A DNA stretch of 64,000 nucleotides. It comes from Sipunculus nudus (lineage: Eukaryota; Annelida; Sipuncula; Golfingiida; Sipunculidae). The translations under genes and the position numbers were made by a program. How positions within the stretch are numbered: position 1 is the stretch's first letter; each line of letters starts with the position of its first letter. Under the pieces are notes generated by a model, which saw only the letters and a program-made list of their open reading frames with translations, searched no databases and had not been told where the DNA came from. Shown one piece after another: positions 1 to 51,320 of this stretch. The stretch lies in contig CM049306.1 of the NCBI GenBank assembly GCA_026874595.1, forward strand, positions 83,790,142 to 83,854,141. The letters are read 5' to 3'.

Positions 1-330
1 TGTCTACAGTGTGTAAGTGAATGTAGGTGGCGCCACCTGTCATTTAATCAAGAAAGCAATGCGGGATGTGTACGCATGCTGAATTTCAAGTAATTTGGTC
101 AAACCACTGCAGAGATATGAGTGATTTTAAACTAAGGCAGGCAAACAGGTGGACGCTGTGCAAAAATGGCTGCAGGTGGCGCCACCATTTTTAGGTATGT
201 ACCATGTTTCATAACAATCCACCAAATGCTTCCTGAGAAATAAGCTCCCAAATTTTACTCTATTCTAAGCTTTGCAACCTTGAAAAGTAGGTCAAGGTCA
301 CCCATCCTTGAACATTACCAAGGTTTTGTA
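1..330. repeat. GGTGGCGCCACC repeat block, left copy
   Basis: Perfect 12-bp palindromes GGTGGCGCCACC at 26-37 and 175-186, set in conserved text (AGAAAGC, GATATGAGTGATTTTAA, AAGGCAGGC). The same units recur at 7,080-7,460 and 13,620-14,480. Confidence 0.8.
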
Positions 331-720
331 AATATGCATCAGCACTGAAGAAATAATGTTCCTGTGTTGAATACCTTTGGAGACAGCCCGCTCACAAGGC
401 CAAAGTTGAAAAATCTAAGCAAAATTCATTAAAAATCAGAAATTGTAAGTGGCGCCCCCTTACTTGTGCAGCAGGTACAGACCATCAGTCCTAATGATCA
501 TAGTAAATTTTGTAAAAAATCCACCCAATGGTTCCTGAGATATAAGCTTCTAAGTGTTTTTCTATTATCGGCTGTAAAACGTAGAAAAATAGGTCAAACT
601 AGACCGAGATTTTGTCAATATACATCTTCACCGAAAAAATAAAATTACTACGGTGAATCCTTTTAGAGTTATCCTACTCACAAGGCTAAAGACGAAAAAT
701 CCAAGAAAAATTCATTAACA
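300..720 (+). repeat. 300-bp module, copy 1
   Basis: Contains AAAATCAGAAATTGTAAGTG, ACCATCAGTCCTAATGATCA and a stretch with AAAACGTAGAAAAATAGGTC. The module recurs twice in tandem at 3405-4020. Confidence 0.7.
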
Positions 721-839
721 AGGCCTACAGGCCTAATGCGAACCTGTGCATTGGGAAATACACCAGGTATAATGCTTCAATGCTGGACCTTTACTTTTCA
801 TGTATATGAACAATGCAAGTACTAACTATTTTGAATATG

Positions 840-3420
840 AAACAATTACACAAAGATCACTGCTGAAATTCTGGCATGGGTGTACACAACACAAAAATGA
901 TTGTAGCTGGCACCACCAGTCTTGTATACAACAAAGCAATCAGAGATATATACATATGCCCACTTTCAGACTGATATATCAAACCCCTCCTGAGAAAACG
1001 CAGGGACACAAACTGTGCAAAAGTCATTGTAGGTGGCGACACCTGTCTTGTGAGCGAGAAAGCCATCAATGACACATAGACAGGTCATTATATTAGGCCA
1101 ATACATCAAACTTACCTTGAGTCTGATGCATGGGGCTGACCAGGCTTAGGTGAGAAAGGCAGTTGCCCCAAGTGAACTGTGACAAATTGCTTGCTCAGGC
1201 TACTGCACTGAGTGAACTCGTGACCTGCACCTGGCTAGACTGAGTAAACTTTTGACCTGTACCTGGCTGCACTGAGTGAACTCTTGACCTGTTGCATAAT
1301 CTGACACAGTTGGCAGTCTGCCAAAGCTATAAATAGATCCAGTCTGACTTTGGTGCCAAATCTGATGCAGTGGGCAGTCTACCACTGCTATAAATAGAAT
1401 GCAGCTACTGCACAGAGTGAACTCCTGACCTATACCTGGCTGCACTGAGTGAACTCTTGACCTGTTGCCTAATCTTAAATAGAAGCCACACCATTGCATA
1501 AGCTCTCAGATTGGCTCCACATGCAGCCCTGTGGGGCATGACACACATGAGGTGATCACATGATACTCATGAGTTGATCACATGCTACCTATGAGGTTAT
1601 TACATGGTGCCCATGAGGTGTTCACATGTCACCCATGAGGTGATCACATGCCTTGTGCTTGGCTGCACTGATTGAACTCTTGACCTTTATCTGGCTGCAC
1701 TGAATGAACTCTTGATCTGTTGCCAAATCTGAAACAGTTGGCAGTTTCTCAACCTATTTAAAATTACAGACACAATCTTGGCCTGTTGGTAAATCTGTTT
1801 ACAAATACTGAAAGGCTTTAGCTAAAATACTTTTTAATCTTTTATATCATACTTGAACCATTCAAACAAACTTGTAAGATATTTTAAAGGTTTTTAAATT
1901 TTTTTCTCATTAAAATCTAAGAAAATGCAAAGTTTTTCAGATGGCTAATTTTTTACATTACATTTCATGATGCTAGCTCCAGTCGTTTTCGAATAGTATG
2001 GGTTAACTTACAGAAGATGGACTATGGACGCCGCCACAACATCAAATTAGCTCACAGGCTCACTACAAATTACTGCAGATGCATATTGAATGCAAAATTA
2101 TAATACAGATACATCTCACTGATAGCAAAATCTTGAATTAAGTTGAGTATGGATACCGATTATTTATAATCTATGTATAGCCGTCTTTATATACCAACAG
2201 AGAGCTGTATACCTGTGATTGTTAACATTGCCTGGTATGAAGAATATCTAAAATCATAAATCTACATTTTTAAAAAGCTTTTAAAAAACATTCTTGTCAA
2301 TATTAACCATAGATAACCTGAAATCTGAAGGACTAGAGGCATGATGTAAGGGATGCTGATAAACTGGTGCTAGGCTAGATGAATCTGCTTTACACAGCTA
2401 CCATATATGGTAAAATGACTTAATTCAATCTTTTTAATTCAGCCATAATTCATTCTTTGGAACCATAAAAGATAATCATTATAAGAATTATTCAGGGGAC
2501 TATTATTGTAAAATATTAAACAAATTGGCCTCTGTGGCGTCAGTCTAAAAATGTTTTGCAGGTTTTTAACTGATTTGGGAAAATACAGCAAAATGGCTAA
2601 GTTAAGCTACCCATAACTCAGCCAAAAATCACTGAACCAAAACCATTTGAACAAACTTGAATTATCAACATCTAAGGATAATTAATGTATGAGACTTAAG
2701 ACTTTGGCCCAGTGGTTTTTGAGAAGAAGATTTTTGTAGCCACTTAGCTTAAATGGGCTGTTATGGTATATGACTAAATTCAGCTTCCCATAACTTAGCC
2801 AAAAGTCACTAAACTGAGACCATTTGAACAAACTTCAGAAAGCACTACCCTAGGATCATTTCTGTGTGATATTAAACAATTTGGCCATATCATTTCAGAG
2901 AAGAAGTTATTTGTTGCTGTCAGTATGATACGGGCACAAAAAAGGCCGATGCAGGTGGCGCCACCAATACCTCAATTTAAGATATGACTCATGTGACCAA
3001 CATTGGCATAAAATTTCGTGATTATAGCTCCAGCCGTTTCTAAGATTGTAATTTTAGTATGCTTTTTTGGACAGATGACTAAGTTCAACTAGCTGTAACT
3101 CAGCCAAAAAACACCGAACTTAAACCATTCGAACAAACTTGAGGAAGATTGTTCCAGGGATAATTTCTGTGAAATATTGGACAATTTGACTGAACAGTTT
3201 CGGAGAATAAGATTTTTAAAGCTTTTTTAGCTTTTCCCTATAAAATCTAAGAAAATGCAGTTAGCCAAAAAATAAGCAAAATCCGATAGAGTTTTCCAGA
3301 TGACTAATTTTATGCATAAAATTTCGTGATGCTAACTCTTGCCGTTTTCAAGTTAGTATGGGTTAACGTACAGACGACGGACGCCGCCACACCATCGCAT
3401 AAGCTCACAGGTTCGCTAAA
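840..3420 (+). repeat. Large duplicated segment, copy 1
   Basis: Closely matches 14,780-16,560 in the same orientation. Shared landmarks include ACTGCACTGAGTGAACTC units, TAACCTGAAATCT, GATGCTGATAAACTGGTGC and an end reading CATAAGCTCACAGGT. This copy is longer because it holds extra 22-bp repeats and more diverged duplicates of its own 3' half (1,980-2,070 and 3,300-3,420). Confidence 0.75.
1549..1650 (+). repeat. 22-bp tandem repeat, about 4.6 units
   Basis: Units read GAGGTGATCACATGATACTC plus AT, with a TGATCA or variant core, at 1549, 1571, 1593, 1615 and 1637. They lie inside duplicated segment copy 1 and are absent from copy 2. Confidence 0.8.
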
Positions 3421-4082
3421 AATCAGAAAATGTAGGTGGCATCCCCTTTAATAGTGCAGCAGGTACAGACCATCATTCCCTATAATTATTGTAAGTTTTG
3501 TGAAAATCAACCCCATGGTTCCTGAGAAATAAGCTTGTAAGTGTTTTTCTATAATCAGCCCTAAAACGTAGAAAAATATGTCAAGGTCACCTATCTTCGA
3601 ACTTGACCGAGATTTTGTCAATGTACATCTTCACCAAGGAAATAAAATTCCTACAGTGAATCCTTTTAGAGATATCCCGCTCACAAGGCCAAAGTGGAAA
3701 AATCCAAGAAAAATTCATTAAAAATCAGAAATTGTAAGCAGCACCCCCTTACTTGTGTCAGCAGGTTAAGACCATCAGTCCCAATGATCACAGTAAGTTT
3801 TGTGAAAATCCACTCAATGGTTCCTGAGAAAAAAGCTTCTAAGTGTTTTTCTATAATCTGCTCTAAAACGTAGAAAAATAGGTCAAGGTCACCCATCTTC
3901 GAACTTGACCGAGATTTTTCAAGACATCTTCACCGAAGAAATAAAATTACTACGGTGAATCCTTTTAGAGATATCCCGCTCACAAGGTAAAAGTTAACGG
4001 ATGCTGGACGGACAGCTAGACGGACGGACGGACAGCTTGGGTGACCACAATAGCCCATCAGCCTAAGGGCTGAGGGCTAAAA
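3405..4082 (+). repeat. Two tandem 300-bp modules with a hairpin 3' end
   Basis: Two units (about 3405-3700 and 3712-4020) match the module at 300-720. The second ends in repeated GGACGGAC and a hairpin (stem AGCCC-TCAGCC, 4052-4078) followed by TAAAAA. This is the same end architecture as the element ending at 13,287. Confidence 0.7.
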
Positions 4083-5100
4083 AGCTATCTAGGATGTTGA
4101 GCTACCTAATTTCAGGTGAATTAATTATTCAAAACACTGCAGAGATATGAATGATTTTAACCCAAGGCAGATGAACAGATGAACACTGTGCTAACATGGT
4201 TGCAGGTTGCGCCACCAATTTTTGTGTATGTTATAAAGCTATCCAAGGGCTACATTTTTGTAGAAAAAAATTTTCCTGATCGGTCAAATGGTTCCTGAGA
4301 TATGTGGGTTTATATGTGGAAACAGACGCACAAATGGACGCTGGGCAGAGAGGAAAGGTCAGATTCACATGTGACCCGATAATTGGTGTAAGTTTCAGAA
4401 AAAGCCGTCCAGTAGTCTCAGAGGAGTTCTCCGAAAATTAACGCTGCGGCGGCGGCAGTGGAACCCGGTCAAAAACATAGTATCAGAAGTGAATGCTTTT
4501 GAATTTAATTTTCAAACATGACAATGGCCTGAAGCTGTTGCTTTTGAATTTAAATAAAAAAATATAAGAAAATTACCAGAAGCTGAAGGTTTTGAATTTA
4601 AATGTTCAAGAAATAGGGTAAACCCCTGATGCTTATGCTTTTGAATTTACCTATGATTTTTCAATTCTTAGGACAATAATTTCCAACAAATGCTTTTGGG
4701 TTTACCTTTAAATAAATCTTTATGACTACTGCCATTGCTTGAATTTTAAAGCAATGGGAAAAAATGGTGTGTAGGTGATGATTAGGGGTTTATATTGTTT
4801 ATTCAATTAACACGGCAAAGGATAAGATGATGATACTGATGGCTTTGAAATTTTTAATAGTAGGACAATAGCCTATTACTTTATCAAATGAGTAACATTA
4901 AATATAAGATTTAATTATGTTATGGGCTTCATTGCTAATGAAGAGAAGCACAACTGAAGGTAATTAATTAAATGCAGCTCATTTAGGTTGAAATAAATGC
5001 TTGTAAAGCAATTACATTTAATGGATTATATGAAAGAGTAATAAAATATTGTAAGTTAAAAAAAAAACATTCTTGAAAGGCCATAAGTACTGAATTGAAA
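4083..5100. other. Repeat remnants and AT-rich intergenic DNA
   Basis: 4,090-4,440 holds another GGTTGCGCCACC-type unit and a stretch matching 14,460-14,620. From 4,480 the DNA is AT-rich with recurring CTTTTGAATTTA at roughly 60-bp spacing (4,497, 4,543, 4,589, 4,639). I see no gene. Confidence 0.6.
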
Positions 5101-13287: not shown

Positions 13288-13619
13288 TTGGAGACAGCTC
13301 GACCTTCAAAACAGGCATCGTAAACATAGAAAATGGCTTTGCAGACTCAATTCAGCTAATCGGCTTACCAACAGAGTCCTAATTAGAATTTAATTAATAT
13401 TCACAAGAAATTCCCATGTAAATAAATAACAAGGCCTACAGGCTTAATGCGAACCTGTGCAAAGTTTAGGAAAATAAATTGAGGTTTATTTTTTAAATTT
13501 AATGTTGATCCTCTTAATTAAGTCCTGCATATCTACCTTAGTCATTATGATTTCAGCAAAATTGACATTTCCAACCTGCAAGTTTCAGACTAGGACATTT
13601 TAAAACCAGAATATGCAGA

Positions 13620-14480
13620 GTAAACCTGAATGTAGGTGGCGCCACCTGTCATAAAATCAAGAAAGCTGTCCAGGATGAATAAACCTGCAAAATTTCAGGT
13701 CGATAAGTCAAACCACTTCTGAGATATGAGTGATTTTATTCCAAGGCATATATGGTTGCAGGTGGCGCCACCAGTTTTGCCTATGATGAAGAGCTATGTG
13801 CGATCTATACACAAGCAAAATTTAGGCCCAATTGGTTCCCGAGATACGAGCTTGGATGTCTGCAGAGTAAACCTGAATGCAGGTGGCGCCACCTGTCATA
13901 AAATTGAGAAAGCTGTCCAGGATGTATAAACCTGCAAAATGTCAGGTGGAAAAGGCAAACCACTGCCGAGATATGAGTGATTTTATCTCAAGGCAGATGA
14001 ACAGATGGACACTTTGCAAAAGTGGTTGCAGGTGGCTCCACCAGTTTTGCATATGATGAAGAGCTATGTGAGATCTATACACATGCAAAATTTTGCACAA
14101 TGTCAGGTGGATTAGTCAAACCATTTCTGAGATATGAGTGATTTTATCTCAAGGCAGATTAACAGATGGACGCTGTGCATAAATGGTTGCAGGAGGCTCC
14201 ACAAGTTTTGCCTATGATGAAGAGCTATGTGAGATCTATACACATGCGAAATTTTGGCCCAATCGGTCAGTCGGTTCCCGAGATATGAGCTTGGATATCT
14301 GCAGAGTAAACCTGAATGTAGGTGGCGCCACCTGTCATAAAATCGAGAAAACTGTCCCGGATGTATAAACCTGCAAAATTTCAGGTGGAAAAGTCAAACC
14401 AATGCTGAGTTATGTGATATTACCCCAAGGCAGATGAACATATGGACACTGTGCTAAAATGGTTGCAGGTGGCGCCACCA
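13620..14480 (+). repeat. GGTGGCGCCACC tandem array
   Basis: Palindrome or close variants at 13635, 13761, 13882, 14031 (GGTGGCTCCACC), 14192, 14321 and 14468, spaced 120-160 bp. Two alternating unit types are seen: one with CTGTCATAAAATC after the palindrome and one with AGTTTTGCCTATGATGAAGA. This is the longest run of the family in the window. Confidence 0.85.
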
Positions 14481-14779
14481 TTTTTTGTGTATGTTATAAA
14501 GCTATCAAAGGGCTACATTTGTGCAAAATTTTTAGCCTGATCGGTCAAACGGTTCCCGAGATATGTGGGTGTATGTGTGGAAACAGATGCACAAATGGAC
14601 GCTGGGCAGCGAGGAAAGGTCAGAGGTCAACCAAAAATGAGGGCGCAGCAGTTCACATGTGACCGATCATAATTCCGAATTTTAAAAAATTCTACCCAGT
14701 GGTTATGGAGGAGTTCTCTGGAAACCTATGCAGCGATAGTGTCCGACTGAAAACATAGTATCCGCAAAACTCTGTCTTG

Positions 14780-16560
14780 GCAGATACAATGATTTTAGCT
14801 GGCACCACCAGCCTTATAATGAGAATACCAAGAGATATATAAATATGCCCAAAGACTGATATGTCAAACCCCTCCTGTGAAATAAGCAGGGACATACACT
14901 GTGCAAAAATTATTGTAGGTGGTGCCACCAGTCTTGTACATTATAAAGCTACCCAATATGTATAAACATGCCCAATTTTAGGCTGATGTATTAAATTCCT
15001 CTGTAGAAATAAGCAGGCGCATACACTGCAAAAGTCAATGTAGGTGGCACCACTTGTCTTGTTAATGAGAATATACCATCAAAGACACATAGACAGGTCA
15101 AAATATTAGTCCAATACATCAAACTTCCCCAGAGTTTGATGCACTGGGCTGACAAGGCTTAGGTGAGTAAGACACTTGCCCCCGATTGACCTGTGACAAA
15201 TTGCTGCCTCAAGCTACTGCACTGAGTGAACTCTTGACCTGCACCTGGCTAGACTGAGTGAACTTTGGATCTGTACCTGGCTACACTGAGTGAACTCTTG
15301 ACCTGTTGCATAATCTGACACAGTTGGCAGTCTGCCAAAGCTATAAATAGATTCAGGCTGAACTTTGGTGCCAAATATGATGCAGTGAACAGTCTGCCAA
15401 AGCTATAAATAGAATGCAGTTACTGCACTGAGTAAAAACTCTTGACCTACACCTGGCTGCACTTCTTCCATGCACTCCTGGCACTGTGCCAAAACTATTT
15501 ATAGAGCTGATATCATCTTGGCTAATGGCATACATCAAGGCTGTGGCAATCTGCCATTAGTAAACCAAGTGCTGCCATCTGTACACAAAAGTGGTCCCTA
15601 CTAGAAATAACTTTGAAATTTATTTTCCCAATACAAAATGCTTTTCAGCTGACTTTTTATAAAAATGAAATCAGGAATATAGGTTAAATTATTACGGATG
15701 CATACTGAATGCAAAATTAAAATACAGATATATATCATTGATAGCAAATTCTTGAATTAAATTGTGTAGGGATACCACTAATTTATAATCCACGTGCAGT
15801 TGTCTTTATATAGCCACACTGCCACAGAGAGGTGAATATCCATGATTGTAACATTGCCTGGTATGATGAATAACTTAAATCATAAATCTAAATTTATTAA
15901 AAGCTTTTAAAAAAACTTTCTTGTCAATATTGACAAAAGTTAACCTGAAATCTAAATGTCTAGTGGCATGATGTAATAGATGCTGATAAACTGGTGCCAG
16001 GCTAGATGTAACAGCATAACACAGTTAACATATATGGTAAAATGACTCAATTCAATCTCAATAATTCAGCCAAAAATCATTCATGTGGATCCATTAATGA
16101 CAATTATTATAAGAATTATTGTAGGGATTATTCTTGTAAAATATTTAACAAACTGGCTTCAGTGGCATCAGTCGAAAAACGTTTCGCAGGTTTATAACTC
16201 ATATATATATAAATCTCCGAACTGGAACCATTCGAACAAACTTGAGAAAAATTGTTCCAGGAATCATTTCTGTGAAATATTGGACAATTTGGATGGACAA
16301 TTTCTGATCTGAGAAGAAGGTTTTTAAAACTTTTTTTGCATTTACCCTATAAAACCTATGAAAATGCAGTTAGAAAAAAAATAAACAAATTTTTTTGGAC
16401 GACTGATTATTTGCAAAAAATTTGGTGATGCTAGCTCCTGCCGTTTTTGAGATAGCTATGGTTAACGTACAAACGACGCACGACGCAGGACGTACGAAGC
16501 ACGACCGAGACACACAACGGAGGACGCCGCATCATCCCATAAGCTCACAGGTCCCTAAAA
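14780..16560 (+). repeat. Large duplicated segment, copy 2
   Basis: Direct-orientation counterpart of 840-3,420, shorter by internal deletions. Ends CATAAGCTCACAGGT after a run of ACGACGCACGACGCAGGACG, where copy 1 has a simple CGTACAGACGACGG. Confidence 0.75.
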
Positions 16561-29228: not shown

Positions 29229-29764
29229 TTAAAGTTCACTTTTCATATTCTTTTCTTGTTCATGAGTTTCTGGTTCTGCTTCTTGATCTCTCTTGTCCAT
29301 TTCTGGAGTTCCCTCGTTTATTTTAATGGCTTTATTAAATTCAGCAGCGGCCGAAAGGAACGTGTCCACCCAGTCAGAGCTTTCTCGGTAAAACACTGGG
29401 GGTTTCCCCAGTGGCGCATCGATCTCCAATGTGACTGGACCATTATATTTTATTGTTTCATCAAAGAAATCAACCCAGGAATCTGAGGGAAAGAACACTT
29501 TCTTCTTTGTAGCTTTCTCCTCTGTCACAGGTGCCACAAGTATGTCCGGTCCAAACAAATACTGATACGCAGTTGTCCAACTCTCAGCGTCATTTGGATA
29601 ATGCATGAAAAGGGGGCGTTGTGCCGGAAGTCCAGTTTCACTCACTTCCTGTACGATTAATCTCCTGTAGGGTCGCAGAGCTCTGAAAGCGTTGACCATT
29701 CTAGCGAACTTCCTCATGCACTCAACAGATGAGTACACCTGCCAGTTATCTTTTGGCTTATTTC
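29229..29764 (-). CDS. GH31 gene, terminal exon 9 (aa 551-728)
   Basis: 536 nt including the TAA stop at 29229-29231. Covers the C-terminal beta domains (YLFGPDILVAPVTEEKATKK, PLGKPPVFYRESSDW). After the point where bacterial YihQ ends there is a further tail rich in Glu, Lys, Asp and Gln, finishing NMKSEL. The last four residues resemble, but do not match, the KDEL class of ER-retrieval signals. Confidence 0.94.
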
Positions 29765-32700
29765 CTGTAATTCAAAAGTTTTAGATGCCAGATTTATTAA
29801 CAAGGACAGTACATTATGTAAGAACAAAACCTAGATAAACAATCTACGAAAGGAAATGTACAAGATTAAGAACGAATACTCCTTATTGCCTCTAAATTTT
29901 AACTGCGGTGTATTATTTTTTGCTCATTTTAACTGTTAGAAGATCAACGTGGAATCAACAAGGTATATCCATTACACAAATTTAGCTATGCATTTATTCC
30001 GGTAACGAATATATTTAAAGTCAGGATAGTGTTTATTGGTTGGTGGAGAAAAAAAATATGATACCATAAAAATGTATACGGATATTTTATCGAAAATTTA
30101 CAGAGGCAATTAAAATCAATGATAACTACCTCACAACAGTAATAGTATGTAACTGTATAAAAATGAAACAAGTTTTCTCATCACATACCTTCGTGTGTCC
30201 GCATGACGGGCGTGAAGACCGCTACCTCGGCACCCCTGAGGAAGAGCTCCTCTGACCTGACCATGCCGAGCTCCGTGATAGTGGTGTAGCCCCCGATGTC
30301 GTAATGAGTCAGCCCCATCCCGCTCATACCCATAGACAACGCCGCCGGGATGGTCGAGGCCAGACCGTCAGAGACGCTAAAATCAACGTTCTGGTCACCG
30401 GCCCACATCATCGTGCTGTATTTAGAAGTCCCTATAACATTCACAACAGTATAACATATCTTTTATCAATCATTTTTATTAATTAGCAGAGATCGCACGT
30501 AAACGGTCTGTTCTTTATCCAGATTAATTTCAATCAGCTTAAAAAACTACATTGATGGAAAAATTACTCTTGATGCTATGAACAAGTTAAATGAAAAAGC
30601 CAAATTTAATCAATGATTGAACCGACACAATCCTTGATATTTGATAATATATTCAATCATAATATTTATATTTTCATCGTAAGTACCTGTTTGCTAACCA
30701 TGCTGATACATGAACATCTTTACATAAAATGCATGGATGCTAATTTAATAATATTTTATAAATATGTGCGGATTTGAATTTAAAAAATCTTTCCATGAAG
30801 TCGCCTCTAGAACATTCTATTGCATGAAATAAAAAAATTGACCAAATTAGCCAAAATCATATATTTAGCTTCACGGAGAAACGAATCATGGCAACTTTTC
30901 ATTTAAGAATGTCACATTTATAGATATCTGTATGGAGTTGCTTACCCGCTCCCCCAGCTCTCATAAAGAACATGGCGTCTCCGAGCATGCCCATTTCCTT
31001 TACGGCCTCATAGTTCATGCGCGCCCACAGGACAGGGTACTCATTGTGCATATCCTGTCCCGTACGACCGTCAGCGAAAATGGCGTCGGTGGGGAGGTAC
31101 TCGCCAAAGTCCGCCATCCAGCCGCTCAGCCCAAGTTTTAACATGTTCGTCTTCAAAATAGTCTCTAATAGTGAGAAAATATTGAAATTCATATATACTC
31201 GCATATGCGAAGATAAATTATTTTTAAATTTATTTTCTTTGTGAGTGGTTTAATTTAGTTATCATTTCCAACTTACTGTAGTACAATAAATAACTTCATT
31301 TAAATGCCTTAATGAAGTAATTTAATTAATTAGCGCAACCCTTAAAGCACTCTTGTCACCAAACGAAAAAGTACCTACCTAGGCATGTAGCAACTTCCAG
31401 CAAAAATATAACTGAATTTTAAAATAATTAAAAAAAAAATCATTGACTTAAAAAAATTCTGACCCTTATACCAGTCGTAAGCCTCCGGATTAGTAAAGTC
31501 GACGAAGCCACAGTCAAACTCCATGAAGTCTGTAGTCAAAGTGTTGCCGTTCTTGTCCTTGGCGAAGTAGCCCTTTTTATCGGCCTCCTTGAACAAGTCG
31601 CCCTTGGAATTAAGATTGGCGTTTGCATAACCGAGAACCCGAATGTTTTCTTCCTCTTTCAGCTGCTTGGCAACTTCTCTGAGACCTGGATATAGTAAAA
31701 ATGGTTTTTAGATAGCAGTGGGGAGCTCAAATGTATATTATGCAAACTACATTGAAAGGATATAATCTATGAAAACTAATTTTTGTGTGTTTATGTGCTT
31801 ATCATAATGTCTTTATAGAATGTAAATGGCCTAAGTACTTATTGTTAATCATTTTCGCCCAGCAGAGAACAGAAAGACCACGATTTCGAAAAAAGAAGGC
31901 CAGTCTTCCATATCTAAGTGTTACAAAGTAAAGTTACAAAGAAATATGGTGACAAAAAGATATACATCCCAATTCATAAAATAGTGAATGCTATTAGTTT
32001 CCGCAGTGAGCTGAAGTTTGATGAAGTCGGTTTTGGTTTCAAAGAGTTAAATTTGAGAAGAATTCGAGATAAGGAAACGCCTTTAAATATACAAAGTGGA
32101 GGTTTATTATATGCGTTCTGATTCAGTTTCTGTTGATTGGGTCATGGTGATACTAACGTGGGTATCTGTCCTCGTCCCATTTCCAGTCCCAGAACACCCG
32201 CTGACCAAACTGTGTGTTGATCTTGCCTGACCAGTCCTGTATCCACAAGGCTGTCACGTGGATGCCGTGTTTCTGTGCACTTCGTAAATGCTCCAGCATC
32301 TATAGAAATGGAGAAATAAAGTTTAGGAATATTCCAATGACGGAGAAAGAGAAACTTTGGATGTTAACCTTGGTCCATCGATGGACCCTCAGTGCTCCAT
32401 TTGTTAGACGGTTTGTCCAACAGATATAACATATAGGACGCAGGGTCCATTCATGGGAAAATGTATGCCTCAGTTAATTCTTTGACATTTACATGATTCG
32501 AGCAGGGAAAGGTATAATTTTATTTTGTTCTTCTCCCCTCCTTTTTCCGGAGTATGAGACACATACGGAAATTTAACAGTTGGGTCCCGTCTCTTTAACC
32601 CGTGAACATATTTATACTGTTAAAACATGATGTGCTAATTTTATCTGCGACATGTCGGTCAACGAATGGTGTAACGGTATATAGACTCTCAATGTTGGGT

Positions 32701-35211
32701 GTTTGGTATAGTATCTTAAAGATAAGAAAAAGATTAGAATGGGAGTAGTAAAGGGAATTTCACAAACATAAATGTACAGGATATGAAAAAAATATGTATA
32801 GAATGTGGTTAATAAAAAGTAAATGTTTGCCAAGATAATTCTTTGGATATTCAGAAGGACATACTCACTATGTCTGTGCCACCCTGAATGCCCAAAATGA
32901 CGCCATCCGACACCCAGCTGGCCAGAGGTGCGGGTCTGCCGATCAGATCGGTTAGTTTGGTGACCAACGAACTCGGAGTCCCTGTCTGAAAATAGATCCT
33001 GCTTGGCTGCCCGAGTTGGAAGATCTCATGGAAGTGCGCATGACGGAAGTCCAGCTCTATGTAATCGTAGTCAGCCACGTGACAGAAGAAGCCCCGGGAA
33101 CTGAGGAATGTCGACTGCGGGTAGTAGGTGGTGTGGTAGTCGCCTCCCGCGTCAGGTCCGTGCACGTCGGCCATGAAAGTTTGGAGGGTTCGTTTATCCC
33201 GCCCGACTCCTTTTTAATATAACAATGTAACATGAATTCCCTTGTGCACTATCTGATCAGGTCTACAGTATAAACTGAACATTACTGAGACAATTCATGA
33301 CCATATTGAGGCATTTTTTATGTAAAAAGTCACATAATCTGTAAACTGTGTGTTTTTCATTCTAGTTTTACAAAGTACCGATGTAGGTTTGGACTAAAAT
33401 TCAGTAAAAATAAGTTCGTATACTCGTCTAGTAGTTTAGAAGTTTTATAATTTGTTACTTTGTTAACAGAAAGGAAGTAAGATTTTAGTGTATGTAAGAT
33501 TTTGGCCTATTCTATTTGTTATTGAACATGTTTCTTCAAATGTTTTGATATTCTTAATTGCTTACAGGAAAGGGTTTCTTAGAATCAGCGGAAAATATAT
33601 TTTATTATGCGCTGATATCGAAACATTTTTTTCTTTTATATTTTCCAACCTTGTTCTCGTGTCCAAATAGGAAACACATGACCCTTGAGATCGAAGTATG
33701 TGAACTGTTCTCCCCCGCCGTAGACATGTTCGCCATCTGCCGCCAAAACCCGAAACCAAACCCGGTCGAATCCTGCAGGTAGCTTACCAAAGTCCACAAT
33801 CAGCGGGTTCTCATCGTCACAGCCAAATTTTAAGGATAACTGTACGAAAAATGTATTCTCTTGCGTATAGTTATTGAAATGTACTGAAACACTCTGTTTA
33901 TCTGTAGTATAATGCGATCAGAATCAACGAATCCCAGAAAAAAAATATATATATTTAAGTTTCATTCAACAGAAAAGGCTTCCAGGGGTCAATTATTTCG
34001 TTTCTTTCGATTTTTGTTGTCGAGATTATGTGTCTAGAAGTGCGTGTGTGTGTGTGTGTGGCGGGGGGGGGGGGGTTCTTAGGCGCTCCGGTAAACATTG
34101 TTTCTTTTTACGAATAAAAGATAAAATGAGAACCTGGTCTGACTTGATACTTATGTGAACTTGACCTAATTTTAGAAGGCTATTTAACCCAATATCGTTA
34201 TCTTGCGGGCGACGGAATGATTAATACCTTTGCAGACCTCTCGTAAGTTATATTTTAAAGGAAGCCTATAAAACACTTGCAACCATGTGTGTGCACACCA
34301 TGGTGTGAATAACTGATAATGCTGGGTAAATTATAATTTATCATCATCAGATACCAAATGCAATATAAATGTACATAGAATGTAAATGTTCGGTGAATAA
34401 ATTATATATATATTACACACGTGGATGGAGCCTTTGGAAAAGATTACGGAGCCGTCAGAGTGAATTATCAAATTTGACAATGCTATTCTCTCAATGACGT
34501 AATCCTTCACATCAAAGTTGCCATGGAATTCTGTAAAGCTTGTTTCTCCGTTACCTACAAATAATAACGGCTTCTCCAAATTGTGCTGGAGGATCTAAAA
34601 TGTAGCAAAAAATAATAAAATAAATAACTTATGTTAACAACACCTTTTGTCAAAGTTTAAAAGAAATAAAATTTGTAAATGGTTAGCATTTAGTACGGAA
34701 ATGTTAGCCTTGTAATATATTGTTAGTTCTTAATATCTTAAAGTAGACCAAACATAAATATGTGGTGATTATTTATTGATGTTCGGATTACACACTGGCA
34801 GAAAAAAAATGTTCAAACACACCCAGTGAAAATGGGTAAAATAAGGTATGACCAGCGCTGTTAACATCATGTATTTACCAATCATCATGTATTTACCAAT
34901 ATATGTTAGAATACCTGAAATAATTAAAGTCTCGTGCCTAAAATATGCCAGGGGAAATGAAACGCAAATAAATAAGTAGACAAGAGGTAAAAGTAGAGGT
35001 AAAGGAAAGTTCGTAAATATGGATATTTCCTTCAGATGAAAGATACTGGCTACGGATTAATGAAGAAGGTAATTCTTGTAAGTAACTATACCTTAACGCC
35101 ATCAAGCTCAATTTCAAATTTGTTGTAACCTGACCGGAAGCGGAAGGGACATTCTGATACTGCACACACTAGTGAGGTGCACAGTATGAACACCTTTGCC
35201 ACGGTTGCCAT
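29229..35211 (-). CDS. GH31 glycosidase, sulfoquinovosidase-like, 9 coding exons, 728 aa
   Basis: Joining nine minus-strand exons at GT-AG sites gives one open 728-residue protein. Exons: 35211-35092, 34594-34421, 33839-33650, 33209-32869, 32299-32158, 31685-31464, 31164-30946, 30431-30189, 29764-29229. It matches Escherichia coli YihQ (about 678 aa, EC 3.2.1.199, GH31) throughout, including GGGEQFTYFD, LGIQGGTDI, MADFGEYLPTD, WAGDQNVDFS, DIGGYTT and GKPPVFYRESSDW. By homology D415 is the nucleophile and D482 the acid/base. Q296, R309, W312 and Y518 match YihQ sulfonate-binding residues Q288, R301, W304 and Y508; the 13- and 3-residue gaps and the D-to-D gap of 67 are the same. The family releases sulfoquinovose from sulfoquinovosyl glycerides. 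Residues 1-19 form a signal peptide, so the protein enters the secretory pathway. The start is the first in-frame ATG after an in-frame stop about 100 nt upstream. Compared with YihQ the protein has an extra charged tail of about 33 residues. The fold and GH31 assignment are near certain; substrate is inferred. Confidence 0.95.
30189..30431 (-). CDS. GH31 gene, coding exon 8 (aa 470-550), acid/base residue
   Basis: 243 nt, phase 1 at both ends. KYSTMMWAGDQNVDF carries acid/base D482, and HYDIGGYTT carries Y518 (YihQ Y508), which contacts the sulfonate site. VFTPVMRTHEG is the conserved barrel end. Donor GTATGT. Confidence 0.95.
30946..31164 (-). CDS. GH31 gene, coding exon 7 (aa 397-469), catalytic nucleophile
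   Basis: 219 nt, phase 1 at both ends. GLSGWMADFGEYLPTD places the nucleophile at D415 (YihQ D405). It continues with DMHNEYPVLWARMNYEA and MFFMRAGGAG, all family landmarks. Donor GTAAGC. Confidence 0.95.
31464..31685 (-). CDS. GH31 gene, coding exon 6 (aa 323-396)
   Basis: 222 nt, phase 1 at both ends. Encodes barrel residues with VLGYANANLNSKGDLF (YihQ: FLAYINPYVASDKDL) and FVDFTNPEAYDWYK. The acceptor is TATATCCAG. Confidence 0.93.
32158..32299 (-). CDS. GH31 gene, coding exon 5 (aa 276-322), sulfonate-binding residues
   Basis: 142 nt. Contains ALWIQDWSGK and GQRVFWDWKWD, so Q296, R309 and W312 fall where YihQ has Q288, R301 and W304. These residues separate sulfoquinovosidases from ordinary alpha-glucosidases of GH31. 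Donor GTTAGT, phase 1. Confidence 0.94.
32869..33209 (-). CDS. GH31 gene, coding exon 4 (aa 162-275)
   Basis: 341 nt. Runs from GVGRDKRT through AGGDYHTTYYPQSTF to SDGVILGIQGGTDI, the entry to the catalytic barrel. Ends in phase 0 at a strong donor GTGAGT. GC is clearly higher than in the flanking introns. Confidence 0.94.
33650..33839 (-). CDS. GH31 gene, coding exon 3 (aa 99-161)
   Basis: 190 nt, ends in phase 1. Carries HVYGGGEQFTYFDLKG and FPIWTREQ, the strongly conserved end of the N-terminal domain in YihQ-type enzymes. The donor GTTGGA is weak, but the frame and homology continue exactly into exon 4 as GVGRDK. Confidence 0.92.
34421..34594 (-). CDS. GH31 gene, coding exon 2 (aa 41-98)
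   Basis: 174 nt, phase 0 at both ends. Encodes part of the N-terminal beta-sandwich domain, with FHGNFDVKDYVIERIAL matching the FRGNFSIKDKLQEKIAL region of YihQ. The acceptor is TTTTAG and the donor GTGTGT. Confidence 0.9.
35092..35211 (-). CDS. GH31 gene, coding exon 1 (aa 1-40)
   Basis: Starts MATVAKVFILCTSLVCAVSE: a lysine, then a hydrophobic core, then AVS before E20, as expected of a cleavable signal peptide. The exon ends in phase 0 at donor GTATAG. A three-codon upstream ORF (ATG TCT CAT TAA) ends just before the start codon and would be in the leader if transcription starts nearby. Confidence 0.88.
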
Positions 35212-49139: not shown

Positions 49140-51320
49140 CAGCGCCGAATATGGCTCATCTGTCTGCGTATAAAATGCGGAAACAATTACTGCTGATGAG
49201 AGTGGATCACATGTTCATGCAGTACGCTCTGCGTTGCAGGCCGGTCAGTGGTGTGAATTACCAGTGTATATATATGCTGCAAATTGTGGAAAATAAATTT
49301 GATCACACTGGCATGACGGTTTCAGTAATGCATAGAGTCCAAGCGCGGCGAGGAATGTATGGTCACCATTTTTTTCTGTCGATATAGAAGTCCAGGTTTA
49401 CCTCGTTGCCATGGTTTCATAGCAGACGATGTTTCACATCCTGGCGGTTTCCCGCCATTATAGTGAATTTGCCCTGGCGCCACACACGAGTGAACACATT
49501 CAGTCCGAATACACCGGCGTTCTTGAATTGGGAGAGACCATATAGCCTCCGGCGAATCACTCAAATATTGATAGCCAAAAGGAGCGCCAGACATGCAAAG
49601 CCCCAATTACCCGAAGTCACGGGGCCGGGGTTGACTTGCGGAGGGTGGGCCGATATCAGACAAAACCCACCGACCAGTGTTGAGGGTGACAGGACTAGAG
49701 GAAGGTTCGGTTTCAGATAAGTTTTAGTGGCTTTCCGGCTGATGACAAATTCACTCTGAGAAACAGTTTTCGCTACCGATGGCTGTAGGATACACGGGTT
49801 TTAAGCGGCATGTGTATAAAACGTTAAATTGAACGGATAAGGCAGTCGCTGTTTCGAGCATATATCGACAGCATCTGAGGACTTGTAACTAGTGTATCTC
49901 TTAACGATGCTTCGGATCTTAATAGATGTTGCTGGAACAAGTACTCCATGGCGGTATACCGTTAATATCGGCAGATATGACCACACCTTTCGGCACTGGA
50001 TCGGACATGGAATTTATTATTTAATTTCCACAAAGCACACGTTATATATGCGACGTATACCGTGAACGAATATCAATAAGCCCAGGCACGTGTGCTATTC
50101 ATTATCGAAATGACACAAGGTCGGTGCGCTTCAGTGACCACGGGTGTCCGGTTTATTATCTGATCATTTGACGATGCACCATAGATGGACGGGCTGTTTT
50201 GAATAGGCTTCAGCAAATCCTCTGGAACCCAGTTACGGTCCGAGTACTCAGAGATGACATGCAGAGATGACTTGGAGTCTCTTAGCAGAATAAATGCCAT
50301 TTTATGGTGAATTACGAGTTCGGGACCACAAGATGAGAAGCCCAATATCAGAGGAACACAGGACTTCGGGATATCAGGTAAGTTCATTTTCATGACACCA
50401 ATTTAACAAAAATGCATGGCCAGTCCTTTGGTATTTCTTAAGGAACATAGCTCATTGCTTGTTTTGATGAATCATTTTTATAACCAGCGTACGAGCACGG
50501 ATGCGCCTGTCTGTTTGAAAACAGCGAGACAAGCATAAAATTCGACCAGCCGGGAGAGAAGTGTTACCTTTACTATGAAGTTGATAACGGAATGGCTTTA
50601 TAGGGATGATTATGTGCTTTAAAGTCGACTCCTCCTCTTCAGTAGGCGCCACAGATCACGTGGGAGCTGTGGCTTACACAAACCCTGCCCTTCCACAGTC
50701 CACGTCGGACAGTTCCCGCCCAGTGGTTCTAAAAGGCTCAGAGTCCCATTACATTGATCCCTGTACCCGACAGTGGCAGGTGAACGGAGTGCCAAAGTTG
50801 CAGGCGCTGCTGTTTGATTTATCTGTGCACTAGATATGTATTTATTGCGTTTCCAGGGCAACCGCTATTACTGTGACTAGGGCACTGGCTATCATGACCG
50901 TATACTGCGGGCTTTCCAGCAAAGCCGTCTGTGATAGCATCTACCATCAGCTGATCTCCCAGACTGCACCGGGGTGCACCACCCAGAGGCCGTATGATTC
51001 CACTGGCCCATTTCGCGGAATGGTCCCCTTTCCGACATACCATGACCACTCCCGGCATCATCCCGTACGCATTAAAACCTACGTCATAAGATATAATACT
51101 AGACCCCCAGTGTACAGTAACGGATCTCCAAACGATAGCCAGGAAAATTATTGCACACTTTATTACCGATGTAATAAACTATGCATGCATGCTCCTATTT
51201 ATACACTATTGTTTTTTATGAACTATACTACACCCCTGCCCCTACTGGCCACGATAGAAACTAATCTGGAAGCTCTTTTTGCACGCAATGGACTGGCCAA
51301 TGCAATGCAAATCTAACCTT
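49140..51320. other. Higher-GC island with overlapping open frames on both strands
   Basis: Frames of 75-147 codons overlap on both strands, the longest on plus at 50873-51316. A strong plus-strand donor (CAG|GTAAGT) sits at 50,377 and a minus-strand one (GAG|GTAAAC) near 49,400, but I could not build a frame-consistent gene on either strand. Above-average GC alone lengthens frames. It may be coding, a conserved regulatory cluster, or both. Confidence 0.25.

Follow-up and report, generated by a model that had tools for sequence, protein, structure and literature searches.

The window analysed here, a stretch of 64,000 nucleotides from the assembly of the sipunculan Sipunculus nudus (GCA_026874595.1, contig CM049306.1, positions 83,790,142 to 83,854,141), carries an intact gene on its minus strand (29229..35211) for a predicted α-sulfoquinovosidase of glycoside hydrolase family 31 (GH31) that resembles YihQ of Escherichia coli. 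Taken as a whole, the evidence favors, with a probability of roughly 0.85, a working YihQ-type α-sulfoquinovosidase that is made by the animal, enters the secretory pathway, and acts on photosynthetic food. The assignment to the sulfoquinovosidase-type GH31 enzymes is strongly supported by sequence comparison. From the completeness of the predicted active site we infer enzymatic activity, and digestion as its purpose, like the compartment, is suggested more weakly. The chemistry of such enzymes is already known; the surprise is the owner of the enzyme, an animal.

The spliced protein matched six distinct PDB sequences nearly end to end, within residues 22 to 690. The E values were 7e-206 for 8r56, 9e-205 for E. 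coli YihQ (5aed; variant 5aee, 4e-204), 5e-192 for 6pnr, 3e-177 for 5ohy, and 1.5e-176 for 5ohs, while the best GH31 entry outside the YihQ type reached 1.5e-41 (approximately 135 orders of magnitude weaker). The comparison with YihQ gave 685 bits, and chance likeness is therefore excluded. The NCBIfam model PRK10426, which is described as "alpha-glucosidase", was passed with 841 bits (cut-off 553; controls: E. coli YihQ 1247 bits, YicI 241 bits), and PRK10658 was failed with 196 bits (cut-off 606; YicI itself scores 1433). Among the Pfam domains, the TIM barrel PF01055 (158 bits, cut-off 23.5) and the C-terminal PF21365 (79.6 bits, cut-off 24.4) were clearly recognized, and the N-terminal PF13802 passed narrowly (28.0 bits, cut-off 27). 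An earlier reading made from the nucleotide letters without database searches (the sequence-only reading) had proposed a sulfoquinovosidase-like GH31 enzyme colinear with bacterial YihQ. The nearly full-length sequence match bears out the colinearity, and the PDB search, the PRK10426 score, the active-site residues, and the tree all agree on the enzyme type.

The active site was deduced from an alignment of the animal protein with YihQ, YicI, and 80 bacterial homologues. These are the best 80 of 106 confirmed relatives (highest identity 49%) found by scanning genome contigs with six 8-residue patterns derived from the query; one of the patterns holds W312, and the sample leans toward similar sequences. 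The predicted catalytic residues D415 and D482 correspond to D405 and D472 of YihQ and are the same in 80 of the 80 bacterial rows. Q270, Q296, R309, W312, and Y518 form the predicted sulfonate pocket, which is equally invariant in all 80 homologues. They align with YihQ Q262, Q288, R301, W304, and Y508, which we take to be the sulfonate-binding residues of that enzyme. The sequence-only reading had listed four of them (Q296, R309, W312, and Y518) besides both aspartates; the alignment places all of these at the YihQ positions and adds Q270. In YicI, the two aspartates are conserved, whereas YihQ Q262, Q288, R301, and Y508 are replaced by S, a gap, A, and F, respectively; the YicI residue in the W304 column was W in one alignment and C in another. 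D405 of YihQ is named as catalytic in the literature (PMC11968277).

The closest characterized systems are bacterial. E. coli YihQ (PDB 5AED, 5AEG, 5OHT) is 46% identical over 673 columns and has the same catalytic and pocket residues, whereas only the animal protein is encoded by nine exons, outside an operon, with a signal-like extension at the N-terminus and a tail of 38 amino acids ending in KSEL. The residues Q, Q, R, W, and Y of the pocket were also seen in the aligned sequences of 8R56 ("Glycosyl hydrolase, family 31") and of Eubacterium rectale SftG (6PNR). The latter is an assayed sulfoquinovosidase, but its gene is a bacterial one within a sulfoglycolysis cluster (PMC11968277); the same paper gives kcat/KM values of about 1e5 per M per s for bacterial sulfoquinovosidases. 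The sulfoquinovosidase of Agrobacterium tumefaciens (5OHY) matches over the same length, but has K and E where the animal protein and YihQ carry the residues equivalent to Q270 and Q296. The animal protein therefore follows the E. coli version. The sulfoquinovosidases of family GH188, which depend on nicotinamide adenine dinucleotide (NAD), catalyze the same net reaction, but belong to another family and use an oxidoreductive mechanism; they are reported from bacteria, plants, algae, and a few archaea (PMC10755693).

GH31 genes are numerous in animals, and the GH31 domain gave 54 exon-level matches across this assembly, which would speak for an ordinary animal enzyme of the MYORG, glucosidase II, or lysosomal α-glucosidase kind under a wrong label. 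MYORG (PDB 7QQF), an animal GH31 α-galactosidase (PMC9491548), shares the family and the animal origin of the gene, but the window protein matches it with an E value of only 2e-20 as compared to 9e-205 for YihQ. A long GH31 reading frame elsewhere in the genome (L102) shows the opposite pattern (1e-122 to MYORG, 4e-17 to YihQ) and is thus MYORG-type by PDB search. The pocket residues R, W, and Y are missing from it, and also from two further host GH31 frames, L103 and L104, the last of which has Q at the first pocket position and S aligned to D415. Because all three lack the pocket and L102 is MYORG-type, the genome has ordinary animal GH31 genes plus a separate YihQ-type gene. The PDB search, the PRK10426 score, the tree, and the comparison with L102 led us to reject mislabeling, whose probability we regard as negligible. 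L102 and L103 are two uninterrupted frames located about 14 kb apart (C12:10216562-10232388).

The gene was rebuilt from the raw sequence as nine minus-strand exons running from 35211 to 29229 with eight introns. All eight introns are of the GT-AG type (phases 0, 0, 1, 0, 1, 1, 1, and 1), they are long, and the reading frame of 728 codons contains no internal stop. The exon count, the coordinates, and the length of 728 amino acids in the sequence-only reading were identical to those obtained here. The whole gene from start to stop codon (29229..35211) is defined by splicing, by the PDB and NCBIfam matches, and by the alignment. Exon 1 (35092..35211) provides the start codon, the signal-peptide-like N-terminus, and the beginning of the N-terminal domain, which continues in exon 2 (34421..34594) and exon 3 (33650..33839), both matching YihQ. 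According to the alignment, exon 4 (32869..33209) covers the remainder of this domain and the start of the TIM barrel and carries Q270, and exon 5 (32158..32299), a barrel exon, contains the pocket residues Q296, R309, and W312. Exon 6 (31464..31685) belongs to the barrel as judged from the Pfam match. The alignment also locates the predicted nucleophile D415 in exon 7 (30946..31164) and the predicted acid/base D482 together with the pocket residue Y518 in exon 8 (30189..30431), both within the barrel. Exon 9 (29229..29764) encodes the end of the barrel and the C-terminal GH31 domain, assigned by Pfam, as well as the tail, which is rich in charged residues, and the stop codon. All nine exons lie on the minus strand, and no second copy was found within the 64-kb window.

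The 153 contigs of the assembly add up to 1.43 billion bases. The window is located at 83.79 to 83.85 Mb of a contig of 110.9 Mb (C1). Wnt exons were found on the same contig at 3.6, 99.8 to 99.9, and 102.0 Mb, and the same search matched none of 14 control genomes. To our knowledge, the Wnt family occurs in animals only. In a protein search of the whole assembly, the 15 matches scored were the nine exons and six distant GH31 places (24% to 34% identity), L102, L103, and L104 among them. No further sulfoquinovosidase copy was present among the best candidates scored, bacterial-looking contigs included. Since the only copy found lies on this 110.9-Mb contig, which also bears Wnt genes, the gene is a real animal gene. 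The GT-AG introns and the Wnt exons on the same contig likewise uphold the animal-type gene of the sequence-only reading.

A bacterial gene misassembled into the animal assembly, or contaminating it, might be suspected, because the assembly appears to include bacterial contigs and the closest relatives detected come from bacteria. The search for relatives covered genome contigs, plasmids, viral contigs, and the window's assembly, the latter being the only animal or protist sequence included. Against such an origin stand the eight GT-AG introns and the position 83.8 Mb into a contig bearing Wnt genes; moreover, no close bacterial copy was found in this search, the best identity being 49% to 50%. 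On the grounds of the introns, the chromosomal position, and the Wnt genes, contamination was rejected, and we give it hardly any credence. As to the bacterial contigs, a COX1 search of the assembly gave 11 matches, of which one on C5 was short and contained a stop. The others were oxidase genes on C60, C61, C62, C66, C72, C74, C75, C89 (two places), and C123, nine with near-equal scores and one cbb3-like. By eye, the translated oxidases of C60 (aa3-like) and C123 (cbb3-like) are bacterial in look. Bacteria, possibly symbionts, seem to have been co-assembled with the animal.

The phylogenetic tree was calculated for the window protein with 21 representatives of the 80 bacterial loci, E. coli YihQ, six plasmid sulfoquinovosidases, Entomospira, and three outgroups (YicI, Haloarcula, and Gloeothece); the run was repeated without Entomospira and the outgroups. 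With a support of 100/100, the window protein was placed on the sulfoquinovosidase side as opposed to the three GH31 outgroups. This side also contains the sequence of Entomospira, which has a very long branch and 27% identity. Placement with non-sulfo GH31 enzymes, a check set beforehand, thus did not occur. The pairing with a sequence from a SAR324 genome was weak (57/88). In the phylum of this genome, 5 of 52 genomes had any match (the known one with 49% identity, another with 36%, and three far), and the relative with 36% identity has Q, Q, Q, W, and Y in the pocket. Approximately unbiased (AU) tests were conducted with the window row forced into bacterial groups that had been defined after viewing the tree. 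The grouping with Spirochaetes and one unclassified bin was weakly rejected (p 0.026); Enterobacterales with Anaerobiospirillum (0.066), Bacillota (0.056), and Alphaproteobacteria (0.237) were not rejected. A plasmid collection yielded 180 records, all with less than 60% identity, 39 of which cover at least 80% of the protein, and the scan of viral contigs for relatives gave no match.

Because the best bacterial identity is 49% to 50% and no bacterial grouping is supported, a recent transfer from a sampled lineage appears unlikely. The gene may go back to an old transfer, to an unsampled donor, or to ancestry shared with other eukaryotes. Some molluscan proteins carry the label "sulfoquinovosidase-like" from automatic annotation. 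That the animal took up and domesticated a sulfoquinovosidase, equipped it with a signal peptide as well as a retention-like tail, and has preserved the gene intact is a tentative scenario, to which we assign somewhat less than even odds.

Both ends of the protein extend beyond the bacterial relatives. The N-terminus (MATVAKVFILCTSLVCAVSEC) contains a hydrophobic core with an 11-residue hydropathy of up to 2.6 and precedes the start of the similarity to YihQ. The signal-peptide-like character of this core was judged by eye and from the hydropathy values, and none of eight compared bacterial sequences displayed a similar core (by eye). The sequence-only reading had proposed an alga-feeding or filter-feeding animal that secretes or stores the enzyme to digest sulfoquinovosyl lipids or glycerides; of this, the hydrophobic N-terminus supports entry into the secretory pathway in part. 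The 38 residues of the C-terminal tail include 11 acidic and 6 basic ones, and all eight compared bacterial sequences stop soon after the last domain. The final KSEL is similar to, but not identical with, the KDEL retention signal. An enzyme retained in the endoplasmic reticulum or the lysosome, not a digestive enzyme of the gut, would be compatible with the proposed sulfoquinovosidase, but assign it another place and purpose. Its substrate would be either the headgroups of sulfolipids already taken up or some unknown sulfonated sugar that comes from the animal or its bacteria. The tail, absent from the eight bacterial sequences, points in this direction, as do the lack of any N-glycosylation sequon in the 728 amino acids and the missing match to YihT described below. 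Conversely, KSEL is not the canonical KDEL, and the available passage on AGR2, in which function was lost when KTEL was replaced by KSEL or KDEL, is indecisive as to retention (PMC10183570). We consider a retained enzyme possible but rather unlikely.

For the YihQ-type sulfoquinovosidase preferred here, the following course of action appears most likely. The protein would enter the secretory pathway via its N-terminal signal peptide, and Q270, Q296, R309, W312, and Y518 would hold the sulfonate of sulfoquinovose. By analogy to GH31 chemistry, hydrolysis would proceed in two steps with retention of configuration, D415 attacking C1 and D482 serving as acid/base. The enzyme would free α-sulfoquinovose from sulfoquinovosyl glycerol, and perhaps the intact sulfolipid is cleaved as well; the likely substrate is the sulfoquinovosyl glycerol that remains after lipases have stripped the dietary sulfolipid. 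YihT, the aldolase of the sulfo-Embden–Meyerhof–Parnas (sulfo-EMP) pathway, had no match in the assembly in a search run without a positive control. Following release, the animal may therefore pass on or excrete sulfoquinovose, or use only the lipid and glycerol parts.

Besides the absence of a YihT match, several observations weigh against this interpretation. The animal protein and E. coli YihQ are 46% identical, and with its KSEL ending, the tail might retain the enzyme intracellularly, so that it would not be secreted. The terminal branch of the protein is long (1.8 to 2.1 changes per column), and it is not joined with support to any of the sampled bacterial groups. H152 replaces YihQ K144 (K or R in 78 of the 80 bacterial rows), and D313 replaces YihQ N305 (N in 79 of 80). 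The branch length and these two substitutions at positions near-invariant in bacteria would also fit a protein of the same fold and origin whose specificity drifted to another anionic or neutral α-glycoside, for example, of a 6-sulfated or phosphorylated sugar. However, all seven catalytic and pocket positions are unchanged, unlike those of the host frames L102, L103, and L104. A drifted specificity is improbable in our view, though less remote than contamination or mislabeling.

The gene is not part of a bacterial-type sulfoglycolysis cluster, as no neighboring sulfo-sugar pathway genes were matched. When eight Yih proteins of E. coli were compared with the window and 15 kb of flanking sequence, only YihQ gave a convincing match, followed by YihV with an E value of 0.039. 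Pfam scans of two sets of 10 flanking reading frames revealed nothing above the cut-off. A weak 3-PAP match in the flanking frames (E 0.011) is probably due to chance, because not one of the 25 matches to the myotubularin domain in the assembly lies on C1. One of the bacterial relatives, on a plasmid of Microvirga ossetica (L084, 4342-8787), lies beside genes for an SDR oxidoreductase, an SMP-30 lactonase, and a TauE/SafE sulfite exporter. Such a neighborhood would be expected for a sulfo-Entner–Doudoroff pathway.

The output of sulfoquinovose amounts to about 10 billion tons per year (PMC10755693). In the literature found, GH31 sulfoquinovosidases are described in bacteria; the search of open-access papers, made mainly by titles and the beginnings of abstracts, revealed none on such an enzyme from an animal. 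A 2026 review counts the known degradation pathways as bacterial only, with no eukaryotic pathway characterized, and a 2022 review states that eukaryotic degradation enzymes are still unknown (PMC9594981). A 2025 study describes the ability of animals to degrade sulfoquinovose as unclear, human cells and germ-free mice having shown none (PMC12330013); its reference list includes a paper from 1987 whose title concerns the degradation of sulfolipid in animal tissues. This gap becomes testable with an animal gene that is intact and encodes a complete predicted sulfonate-binding site. If the proposed function holds, animals, and not just their bacteria, release sulfoquinovose from photosynthetic sulfolipids, and animals eating photosynthetic food join the sulfolipid cycle. 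In the boldest version of this idea, the enzyme would act within digestive cells, its targets being chloroplast lipids from the food, and the sulfoquinovose would go to the animal or to resident bacteria.

Two further features were observed in the window. The segments 18-4363 and 13611-16486 share many repeated stretches, most of them with about 77% to 87% identity and some arranged in matching order, which likely represent an old duplication or a repeat family. The region 49388-51316 contains overlapping coding-like frames on both strands, five of which were scanned without a Pfam match; it belongs to the most GC-rich part of the window (48 to 52 kb, 41%).

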